Assembly: GCA_025463925.1 (NCBI GenBank)
Contig: JAODBK010000079.1
Span: forward strand, 29,703 to 93,702
Source of the DNA: Acidimicrobiales bacterium
GTDB lineage: Bacteria > Actinomycetota > Acidimicrobiia > Acidimicrobiales > AC-14
DNA: 64,000 bases
Direction: 5' to 3'
How positions within the stretch are numbered: position 1 is the stretch's first letter; each line of letters starts with the position of its first letter. A program made the translations under genes and the position numbers. Below, piece after piece: positions 26,890 through 33,719 of the stretch. Under the pieces are notes generated by a model that was given only the letters and a program-made list of their open reading frames with translations, had not been told where the DNA came from and searched no databases.

Positions 26890-27273
26890 ATGCATGGCAC
26901 GGAACCATTGACGCGAACCGCTCGGCGGTCCCGGTTCACCGTCGTGACGCCGCCGGCGAGCGAAGGGCTCGACGAGCTCGGGGACAGGTGGCCGCTCGAC
27001 GCCGAGGGGTCGGAGGCGCCGTGGGTCGGCGTGGTCGTGGTGGCCGGCATCGCCGCCGGCGTCGTGTGCCTCACGGCGATCGCGCGTCTCGGTGTGGTCG
27101 GCCGGTTCCTCGACGGCCGATGGATGGCCGGGATCGAGCGGCTGCTCGGGCTCTACGTGCTGGCGTCGTTCACCGTGTGCGCGGTGCTCGCGCTGGCGGT
27201 CGAGATCGGCCGCCCGCTCAGGACTGGATCGTCGTCCCAGCTGCGACCGGCCCCTCGCCGGCGCGGCACGTGA
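26890..27273 (+). CDS. Two-helix membrane protein of unknown function
   Basis: 127 residues from ATG 26890, preceded by GAGGAGGGGACC. An N-terminal soluble 45 residues (TRTARRSRFTVVTPPASEGLDEL) is followed by two membrane spans, WVGVVVVAGIAAGVVCLTAIARLGVV and LLGLYVLASFTVCAVLALAVEIG, and a basic tail (RPAPRRRGT). No family recognised. Its 3' end overlaps by 56 bp with the convergent regulator gene, so the two may interfere at transcript level. Confidence 0.5.
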   Translation: MHGTEPLTRTARRSRFTVVTPPASEGLDELGDRWPLDAEGSEAPWVGVVVVAGIAAGVVCLTAIARLGVVGRFLDGRWMAGIERLLGLYVLASFTVCAVLALAVEIGRPLRTGSSSQLRPAPRRRGT

Positions 27274-27850
27274 GCACCACCTGCACGGCGTGCTCGTCGG
27301 TCGCGGCGAGCTCGGGATCGGAGTACTTCGACGTGATCGCGCGAAAGGCTTCCTCGAGCTCGGCGAAGAGGAACGCGTAGCGCGGCGCGTCGGTCCGCAG
27401 CGTCGCGGTGCAGACCGCGGTGAACGTCGTCGCCGGCGCATGGCGCGTCGTCGATCGCGCATCGTGCGGTGCCTTCAGCAACCCGTCGATCATGCGGGCG
27501 ATCAGCTGCGCGTCGCCACCCGAGGCATCCGGTCCGCCGGGGCGGCAGAGGTCCATCGGCATGGTGAGCGAATCCGCGCAGGCCCGGTAGATCCGCTTGC
27601 CGCCACGGATGCCGGCTTCCTCGATCAGGCCGACACGAGCGAGCGCGTCGACGTGGTACTTGACCCGGTCGACGTCCTCGCCGAGCTGCGCGGCGACACT
27701 GTACGTCGACGCCGGATCCCGGAGACACCACAGCACCTTGACGCGGAGCAGCTTGAGGAGCGCGTCCGCCTGCTCGGGTCCGAGGGCGAGCGATCCGGTC
27801 CCGACGTCGGAGGGCATCCGCGTGGACGTGGCATCGTCGATGGCGTGCAT
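27218..27850 (-). CDS. ArsR-like winged-helix transcriptional regulator
   Basis: 210 residues from ATG 27850. Residues about 25-95 are a winged helix (LKLLRVKVLWCLRDPASTYSVAAQLGEDVDRVKYHVDALARVGLIEE...KRIYRA) of the ArsR/DUF5937-like type, with the recognition helix in DRVKYHVDALARVGL. The C-terminal half is a helical effector or dimer region with HAVQVVLTCRAGEGP. No metal-binding CxC is seen in the DNA-binding helix, so metal sensing is unlikely. It lies 56 bp downstream of aceE on the same strand and may be cotranscribed with it. Confidence 0.75.
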   Translation of the reverse strand: MHAIDDATSTRMPSDVGTGSLALGPEQADALLKLLRVKVLWCLRDPASTYSVAAQLGEDVDRVKYHVDALARVGLIEEAGIRGGKRIYRACADSLTMPMDLCRPGGPDASGGDAQLIARMIDGLLKAPHDARSTTRHAPATTFTAVCTATLRTDAPRYAFLFAELEEAFRAITSKYSDPELAATDEHAVQVVLTCRAGEGPVAAGTTIQS

Positions 27851-27906
27851 GCGAGCATCAGTTCCCGGCGCTCGCCGGCAGTTCCCTCCACCATCCGGGT
27901 GAACTT

Positions 27907-30600
<2,694 letters not shown>

Positions 30601-30633: not shown

Positions 30634-31683
30634 ATGACGACGACCGCCTACACGGATGGCGCCTGCCTGGGGAACCCCGGGCCGGGCGGCTGGGCGTGGG
30701 CCGTGCCCGATGGCGCCTTCGCCAGCGGCGCCGAGCCCCACTCCACCAACCAGCGCATGGAGATCACCGCGGCGCTCGAAGCGGCGCGCGCCATCCGCGG
30801 ACCGCTCGACATCGTGAGCGATTCGACCTACGTGGTGAACTGCTTCCGGGACCGCTGGTGGGAGGGCTGGCTCGCGCGGGACTGGAAGAACTCGCAGAAG
30901 AAGCCGGTCGCCAACCGCGATCTCTGGGAGCCGCTGATCGAGCTCGTCAACGCCCGGGCCGGTGGGCCGGACCGGGTCACGTTCCGGTGGGTCAAGGGCC
31001 ACAGTGAAGATCCCATGAACGATCTGGTCGACGCGCTCGCGGTCGAGGCGGCGACCACCGGCGAACGTCGGCGGGGCGATTCCCCGCCGGACTCGGTCGG
31101 GCCGCCCGACAGCCCGAAGACGCGGAGCCGCGGGCGTGCCGGCCCGGCGCGCCGCGACGATCCGCCCGACGGGCACCGGCTCGTGGTCGTCGGCCACCGG
31201 CCACCGGAGCTCGGCGGATACGGCGACAACGACGTGGCCGAGGGCGTGCGGACGCGCCTGGCCGAGATCCTCGCCGCCAAGAAGGTCATGCACCCGGACC
31301 TGGTCGTGCTCACCGGGCTCGGGCTCGGGGCCGAGCAACTGGCCGCAGAGGCGGCGGTCGCGGCCGACGTGCCCTTCGTCGCGGTGCTGGCCTTCCCGGA
31401 CCAGGAGTCGGTGTGGTCGGCGGCACTGCAACGCCGCTACGGCGAGCTCCTCGAGCGGGCGGCCGACGTCCGCACGGTCACCGCCAAGAAGCCCGGATCG
31501 CGCACTGCCGTCCTCGGCGCGCTGGCGCGGCGCAACGGCTGGTTGGCGCGAAACGCCGACGAGGCGATCGCGGTGTGGAGCGGCGGCGACGAGGCGATCG
31601 GCCGGCTCGTGCGCTCATTGCGCGATCACGTCGGCGACGAAGACGTGTGGGTGCTCGACCCTACGGAGCTGTCAGCCGGCTGA
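30634..31683 (+). CDS. RNase HI fused to a YpsA-like SLOG domain
   Basis: 349 residues. Residues 1-140 are RNase HI with a full catalytic set: Asp8 (YTDGA), Glu43 (RMEITAA), Asp63 (SDSTYV), His123 and Asp133 (GHSEDPMNDLVDALA). A charged linker (about 141-180) leads to 182-345, a Rossmann-like SLOG domain: RLVVVGHRPPELGGYG, VLTGLGLGAEQLAAEAAVAADVPFVAVLAF, FPDQESVWSAALQRRYGELL, RRNGWLARNADEAIAVWSGG, the order of the YpsA/DUF1273 group. The first half should cut RNA in RNA-DNA hybrids; SLOG domains bind nucleotides or related ligands. GAGGTGAG precedes the ATG. It overlaps the convergent aat gene by 23 bp. Confidence 0.82.
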   Translation: MTTTAYTDGACLGNPGPGGWAWAVPDGAFASGAEPHSTNQRMEITAALEAARAIRGPLDIVSDSTYVVNCFRDRWWEGWLARDWKNSQKKPVANRDLWEPLIELVNARAGGPDRVTFRWVKGHSEDPMNDLVDALAVEAATTGERRRGDSPPDSVGPPDSPKTRSRGRAGPARRDDPPDGHRLVVVGHRPPELGGYGDNDVAEGVRTRLAEILAAKKVMHPDLVVLTGLGLGAEQLAAEAAVAADVPFVAVLAFPDQESVWSAALQRRYGELLERAADVRTVTAKKPGSRTAVLGALARRNGWLARNADEAIAVWSGGDEAIGRLVRSLRDHVGDEDVWVLDPTELSAG

Positions 31684-32696: not shown

Positions 32697-32746
32697 AAGG
32701 ATCCTGCCAGTGACTTTATTGACTACATGCGCGAGAATCCTGCCAT
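32697..32746 (+). promoter_or_regulatory. Control region of the GlxA-type gene with direct repeat
   Basis: ATCCTGCCA occurs at 32701-32709 and again at 32738-32746, 37 bp apart, bracketing TTTATT (a possible -10 for the ATG at 32727). The second copy runs into the ATG at 32745. The spacing, about 3.5 helical turns, would suit an autoregulating AraC-type protein. Confidence 0.3.
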
Positions 32747-33719
32747 GGCATCCCGACCCAAACGCCACACCGTCGCCGCGGTCATCGGCCACGAGACGTC
32801 GCCGTTCGAGCTTGCCGTCGCGTGCGAGGTGTTCGGCATCGACCGGTCGGAGGACTTCGGTGTTCCTTGGTACCGCTTCATGGTCGTGGCCGCCGAGGAG
32901 CCACCCATCCGGGCCGCCACCGGCTTCACCATCGACACGCCGTACCGCCTCGATTCGTTGCGCAAGGCCGACACCATCGTCGTTCCGGCGCGGTCGGGCG
33001 CGCCCGAGGCGATGGCGCCGCAGCTCATCGACGCGCTGCGCGCCGCGCACCGGCGCGGTGCCCGCATCCTCTCGGTGTGCACGGGCGCGTTCGCGCTCGC
33101 CGAAGCTGGCTTGCTCGACGGCAAGCGCGCCACCACGCACTGGTTCCACGCAGCCGAGATGGCGCGGCGCTACCCGAACGTCAAGGTCGACCCCGACGTG
33201 CTCTACGTCGACGAAGGTGACGTGATGACCTCGGCCGGGACGGCGGCGGGCATCGACCTGATGCTGCACGTGGTGCGGCAGGACTTCGGCGGCGAGATCG
33301 CCAACGCACTGGCCCGCCGGATGGTCGTCCCGCCGCACCGCGACGGCGGTCAAGCGCAGTTCGTCGACGAGCCGATGCGCGACGCATCGGACGGCGATCT
33401 CTTCGGTGACACGCTCGCGTTCATGGAGCAGCATCTCGGGGAGGTGTGCACCATCGACGATCTCGCCGCCCGTTCGGCGATGAGCCCGCGCACCTTCGCC
33501 CGTCGGTTCCGCGCCGCCACCGGCACCACGCCGCACCAATGGCTCACGCGGCAGCGGGTGCTGCTCGCGCAGCGGCTCCTCGAGACGTCGGACGAGTCGA
33601 TCGACCGCGTCGCCGAGCGTTGCGGCTTCGGGTCGGCGGCCGCGCTGCGGCCCCACTTCCAGCGAATCGTGCGCACCTCGCCGATGGCCTACCGGAAGTG
33701 CTTCTTCGAGTGCCCGTGA
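32745..33719 (+). CDS. GlxA family transcriptional regulator (DJ-1/PfpI + AraC HTH)
   Basis: 324 residues. Residues 1-170 are a DJ-1/PfpI-like domain (HTVAAVIGHETSPFELAVACEVFGID, ARILSVCTGAFALAEAGLLDGKRATTHW with the elbow Cys); residues about 215-320 are the AraC double HTH (TIDDLAARSAMSPRTFARRFRAATGTTPHQWL, LLETSDESIDRVAERCGFGSAAALRPHFQRI). Such proteins usually activate catabolic genes for nitrogen or glycine-betaine-type compounds. ATG 32727 in the same frame is an alternative start. It is translationally coupled to the following HAD gene by a GTGA overlap. Confidence 0.88.
   Translation: MASRPKRHTVAAVIGHETSPFELAVACEVFGIDRSEDFGVPWYRFMVVAAEEPPIRAATGFTIDTPYRLDSLRKADTIVVPARSGAPEAMAPQLIDALRAAHRRGARILSVCTGAFALAEAGLLDGKRATTHWFHAAEMARRYPNVKVDPDVLYVDEGDVMTSAGTAAGIDLMLHVVRQDFGGEIANALARRMVVPPHRDGGQAQFVDEPMRDASDGDLFGDTLAFMEQHLGEVCTIDDLAARSAMSPRTFARRFRAATGTTPHQWLTRQRVLLAQRLLETSDESIDRVAERCGFGSAAALRPHFQRIVRTSPMAYRKCFFECP

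Follow-up and report, generated by a model that had tools for sequence, protein, structure and literature searches.

The stretch of DNA analyzed here, 64,000 nucleotides of contig JAODBK010000079.1 from an Acidimicrobiales bacterium (the window), carries a gene that joins, in one reading frame, a ribonuclease HI (RNase HI) domain and a SLOG domain of the YpsA type. The parts of this gene are listed below by window position; counts refer to 74 fused copies that differ in RNase H sequence, and the signature named for the pocket loop is that given in passages of PMC6459960.

30634..31683, plus strand: whole gene including the stop codon, encoding a 349-residue RNase HI-SLOG fusion; one match in its own genome
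30634..31068, plus strand: RNase HI domain, residues 1 to 145, with catalytic D8, E43, D63, H123, and D133
31069..31173, plus strand: linker, residues 146 to 180; residues 163 to 171 have a predicted local distance difference test score (pLDDT) of <50 in the structure model
31174..31680, plus strand: YpsA-type SLOG domain, residues 181 to 349
31192..31221, plus strand: SLOG first loop GHRPPELGGY, residues 187 to 196; G187 in 74/74 and GG194-195 in 52/74 fused copies
31315..31335, plus strand: SLOG pocket loop G228-L-G-L-G232-A-E234, corresponding to the GxD/E signature of YpsA; G228, G232, and E234 in 74/74
31531..31542, plus strand: SLOG residues R300 (74/74) and W303 (73/74 fused copies)

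The N-terminal domain scored 105.2 bits against PF00075, for which the curated cut-off is 25.8 bits, and its D-E-D-H-D catalytic set was kept in 145/145 aligned sequences, in agreement with a preliminary description of this DNA that had called the RNase HI fully catalytic. (This count, like the tree and tail counts below, leaves out the viral RNase H of L088 to L090 as well as L015 and L045, which are truncated; both of the latter are retained in the motif and charge tables, giving 74 rows.) Judged from these residues, the domain likely cuts RNA in RNA-DNA hybrids. The fusion gene was the single match to PF00075 in its genome, and RNase HII matched once, elsewhere; since the assembly is 96.67% complete, a second RNase HI could lie in the missing part. 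According to PMC4429107, losing both RNases HI is lethal in Mycobacterium smegmatis, which, by analogy, makes a housekeeping role likely for the RNase HI of the fusion genome. Separately, two genomes of one family (L129 and L149, family f76) hold tandem RNase HI copies within one open frame; the second copy at L129 has lost the catalytic set, with EESAE in place of DEDHD, and the match to the second copy at L149 lacks the last two positions.

The C-terminal part narrowly exceeded the curated cut-off of the YpsA family PF06908 (27.9 versus 27.7 bits), and this profile matched 80 of 89 relatives at an E value of ≤0.01. G53 and E55 of YpsA, which make up the GxD/E signature, are represented by G232 and E234 in all 74 fused copies, and the predicted fold, obtained with high confidence, corresponds to the whole YpsA domain. 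Thus, the claim that the chain ends in a complete YpsA-like SLOG domain held up, if by a small margin in the profile comparison. YpsA of Bacillus subtilis (PDB 2nx2, PF06908) resembles the SLOG part in fold over 166 residues, in the GxE/GxD signature, and in the type of first loop; however, it is only 17% identical to it and stands alone, without RNase H. Passages of PMC6459960 tie B. subtilis YpsA to cell division and oxidative stress, name no proven ligand for YpsA of this kind, and describe G53 and E55 as a predicted ligand site at which mutation of either residue abolished the overexpression phenotype; the YpsA clade is associated with NAD and ADP-ribose chemistry there and in passages of PMC9503650.

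Other families fitted the C-terminal part less well. The DprA profile (PF02481) scored 12.3 bits on it, below the cut-off of 29.6, and matched 12/89 relatives at an E value of ≤0.01 (best, 3.9e-5); DprA and ShosA also differ from the fusion in being without RNase H. The SLOG domain is acidic, with a median net charge of −4 and an isoelectric point of 5.5 across the 74 fused copies, so that DprA-like DNA binding is unsupported by charge. The motif PGGxGTxxE, which we take to be that of the LOG phosphoribohydrolases, was looked for in the SLOG part and is absent from it, and no CobC phosphatase domain matched at the C-terminus in Pfam up to an E value of 1.

Five SLOG residues (G187, G228, G232, E234, and R300) are invariant in the fused copies. 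The first loop is partly lost, with 22/74 copies lacking GG194-195 in the alignment, and in four genomes of family f18 the SLOG parts are very divergent (38 to 57 bits), yet the five residues are retained. That the residues of the predicted ligand loop are invariant even where the first loop is lost fits a pocket better than a mere scaffold. Neither R300 nor W303 is present at the equivalent positions of three distant stand-alone SLOG relatives. The ratio of nonsynonymous to synonymous substitution rates (dN/dS) was 0.03 to 0.24 for the SLOG part (YN00 values for 8/39 pairs, six of the eight within one genus) and 0.05 to 0.13 for the RNase H part (values for 7/39 pairs), and the identities of the two domains correlated moderately across 68 fused copies (Spearman, 0.50).

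Genome searches, which scored only the best candidates per genome (at most 5 and 9) and could therefore miss rare separate copies, showed how closely the two domains are associated. P0001 matched 57 of 60 genomes in the close draw and 268 of 395 in the class draw, with the genome of the window counted in each. The profile of the SLOG part, A2, matched 58 of the same 395 genomes, all within the 268, leaving 210 class-draw genomes with a P0001 match and no SLOG match at an E value of ≤0.001. In 57 of the 58 SLOG-bearing genomes the domain shares its frame with RNase HI; both domains were read at the locus in 55 of these, and two (G374 and G387) come from search tables only. A misread stop or a strictly local fusion was rejected on this survey of architectures. 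In the phylum draw, 12/396 genomes matched, namely, eight of the order of the window (its own included), two fusions outside the class in which both domains were read (G448 and G513), and two stand-alone relatives. The stand-alone SLOG relatives, in G072 of the class draw and in G443 and G645 of other classes, matched weakly and carry GxD instead of GxE. The SLOG-only pieces of G002, G007, and G402 run off their contigs and are uninformative on separation. Named relatives among the matches listed are Acidimicrobiales, Acidimicrobiia, or merely Actinomycetota/Actinobacteria. Across the genomes searched, this SLOG subfamily is thus linked near-exclusively to RNase HI, an association that speaks for a nuclease-linked job. 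As separate observations, G049 carries, about 10 kb from a full fusion, a second copy of 281 residues (L191) in which the SLOG domain is kept and the first half of RNase HI is missing, placing D8 and E43 outside the frame, and G336 encodes, on different contigs, two RNases HI, one fused and the other unfused with a QESLF tail (L109 and L135).

Both domains are known already, and Joint Genome Institute product names, "ribonuclease HI/uncharacterized phage-like protein YoqJ," indicate that automatic annotation had recognized both halves. Consistent with the preliminary description, which knew of no account of this fusion, no paper on the RNase HI-SLOG pairing was found among the literature matches listed, although the founding SLOG survey (Burroughs 2015) may mention it; in PMC3814617 and PMC9674854, which mention both "YpsA" and "RNase H," the relevant passages deal with no such fusion. 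The fusion with CobC, which the preliminary description names as the known actinobacterial one, is real (PMC7466739). In this mycobacterial protein (MSMEG_4305 and Rv2228c), an actinobacterial RNase HI likewise carries a C-terminal metabolite-type domain behind a variable linker; however, the domain is a CobC phosphatase rather than SLOG, and another RNase HI is encoded in M. smegmatis. RelZ (MS_RHII-RSD) of M. smegmatis, as described in passages of PMC7591505, combines RNase H activity and nucleotide signaling in one chain and is linked to R-loop stress, but its nuclease is an RNase HII and its partner domain an alarmone synthetase rather than SLOG.

Fused and unfused class members are interleaved on the RNase H tree. 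At least 16 changes between the two states were required, compared with a shuffled mean of 48.6, which indicates that SLOG presence is clustered on this poorly resolved tree; well-supported branches force only 1 change. With 140 columns and 72/142 inner branches open, the tree fits one gain with many losses as well as several gains. The 73 unfused loci come from the best-matching places listed and are not a random pick. Sequence resembling the linker was found, by a loose pattern set by eye, in the tails of 13/73 unfused copies (L159 among them doubtful) and of 46/72 fused ones; in those 13 copies it looks like a trace of SLOG loss. A tblastn search with 72 SLOG queries detected no convincing SLOG remnant behind the 73 loci, six of which have <450 bases downstream; its three matches, with E values of 0.006 to 0.008, all came from one query and were treated as noise. 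LF occurs within the last six residues of 15/72 unfused proteins from six families, versus 0.47 expected and 1/72 fused proteins (L104, which has an open end, is left out of the tail count), in tails such as QLSLF, EQRLF, EQSLF, and AQGTLF. The loci are as follows.

Unfused RNase HI with LF tails: L084, L092, L093, L095, L109, L114, L118, L130, L162, L166, L176, L178, L179, L184, and L187

These tails resemble what we take to be the general sliding-clamp-binding peptide of bacteria, and no paper on such a tail on RNase HI was found among the literature matches listed. They provide the strongest hint that targeting or control modules have their place at the C-terminus of RNase HI.

The gene lies next to one for a subunit of pyruvate dehydrogenase, which serves as a marker of the locus.

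27907..30600, minus strand: aceE, pyruvate dehydrogenase E1, divergent from the fusion gene (PF17831, 7.2e-94)

An aceE relative lies beside or near the gene, divergently, in 13/17 fetched loci. These 13 include both unfused genomes fetched at that size, with the relative adjacent at L084 and about 6 kb away at L085, so the same chromosomal rnhA occurs with and without SLOG in this order; in four fusions of other orders or classes, no aceE relative lies within the fetched stretch. As the most recurrent of the neighbors considered, unfused loci included, aceE marks the position of the gene rather than the function of SLOG, and we rejected the neighborhood as a clue to the ligand. PADLOC models matched none of seven proteins (the fusion and six neighbors) at an E value of ≤0.001, leaving a defense island unsupported. 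Among 1,051 phage records with a match, none covers 80% of the fusion protein; three IMG/VR loci are RNase H only, and both IMG/VR patterns lie in the RNase H part. No phage origin was found in these records.

We propose, with a probability of roughly 0.42, that a single chain couples a catalytically complete RNase HI to a YpsA-type SLOG domain that binds a nucleotide-type ligand at its GxE loop and alters the site or rate of cleavage. RNase HI would cut RNA-DNA hybrids as usual, SLOG would take up the ligand in the pocket of the GxE loop and R300, and the bound domain would adjust, through the tether, where or how fast the enzyme cuts. We infer the cleavage activity, the binding, and the effect of the ligand, which would be a nucleotide or an ADP-ribose-like molecule. 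Since the linker is predicted to be loose and a sole RNase HI could hardly be off by default, we consider it more likely that the tether modulates or positions a constantly active enzyme than that SLOG acts as a strict on/off switch. RelZ and ThsA of the Thoeris system may serve as precedents, the former for RNase H with nucleotide signaling and the latter for an enzyme with a SLOG sensor: passages of PMC9503650 describe how the C-terminal SLOG domain of ThsA senses a cyclic ADP-ribose variant and triggers the N-terminal enzyme. ThsA differs in its sirtuin enzyme, its place in an anti-phage system, and its far more distant SLOG domain (7% identity); no ThsA-type sirtuin is present in the fusion, the N-terminal part of which is RNase HI. 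A more specific form of coupling, which we hold to be rather unlikely, is that the pocket (G187, G228, G232, E234, and R300) senses a nucleotide of the ADP-ribose or alarmone type and thereby adjusts R-loop removal by the sole RNase HI, whereas sister lineages place a sliding-clamp peptide at the same position; Acidimicrobiia would then swap metabolite control and replisome control.

Several observations weigh against coupling. The full-chain model has a predicted template modeling score of 0.61 and a linker of low confidence, so that no fixed interdomain contact is predicted; the interleaving of fused and unfused members implies that lineages can do without the SLOG module over evolutionary time; the short database proteins P0178, P0209, and P0211, whose contigs measure 18 kb, 151 kb, and 1.09 Mb, start at SLOG itself and may be separate SLOG genes; and in PMC7466739 the domains of the M. 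smegmatis RNase HI-CobC protein were judged not to be coupled in vivo, with the fusion attributed to fixation by drift. All four, together with a linker that varies from 21 to 100 residues (median, 37.5, in the fused copies), would suit domains that are joined yet independent, with SLOG a small nucleotide-processing enzyme or binder riding on RNase HI. We consider such independence unlikely. Independent domains should survive separation, yet 57 of the 58 SLOG-bearing genomes of the class draw encode the domain in frame with RNase HI, and the remaining genome holds a distant relative; the short versions P0146, P0170, and P0226 start within the linker or within RNase H, as would fusions that are broken or have a wrongly assigned start. 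Unlike the CobC case, this SLOG subfamily is rarely found without RNase HI, P0178, P0209, and P0211 being the exception, and we weighed this toward coupling. For a homologue of the M. smegmatis protein, moreover, passages of PMC7466739 report that CobC influenced the RNase in vitro.

The main rival to coupling is that SLOG is a targeting module, directing the nuclease to the replisome or single-stranded DNA as a clamp-binding tail of the unfused relatives would; we regard it as a serious but doubtful competitor. The LF tails would fit it, although clamp binding by them presumes a general motif and the unfused set is a selected one; the acidic charge of the domain is unlike that of a typical nucleic acid tether, and the fusion protein falls well short of the DprA cut-off. 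The preliminary description had also connected SLOG domains with conflict systems, and YpsA-clade SLOG domains do occur in these (PMC9503650), which leaves an anti-phage effector, with a nucleotide signal unleashing the nuclease, to be considered. This role is highly improbable and was not borne out: the PADLOC and phage searches described above gave no support, the aceE neighborhood is shared by two unfused genomes, and no other RNase HI was detected in the genome.

RNases H are usually regarded as constitutive. A conserved SLOG domain on a sole RNase HI would allow a direct in vitro test of whether a metabolite controls R-loop clearance, with the signature residues as ready mutants, and fusion to an easily assayed enzyme would provide a read-out for finding the YpsA ligand. 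If SLOG binds a nucleotide-like molecule, a signal of the cell could steer the clean-up of RNA-DNA hybrids. Together with RNase HI-CobC and RelZ, the fusion suggests that RNases H of actinobacteria have acquired nucleotide- or cofactor-related domains repeatedly.

Additional genes were noted near the fusion. Just behind aceE, a possible helix-turn-helix regulator is encoded at window positions 27221 to 27868 on the minus strand (HTH_20, 23.3 bits, below the cut-off of 27). On the plus strand, positions 32700 to 33716 encode a DJ-1/PfpI domain and an AraC-type helix-turn-helix regulator in one protein, a common architecture. Downstream of the fusion, several genomes (L071, L082, and similar loci) carry genes that by eye resemble those for subunits A and B of hydantoinase/oxoprolinase.
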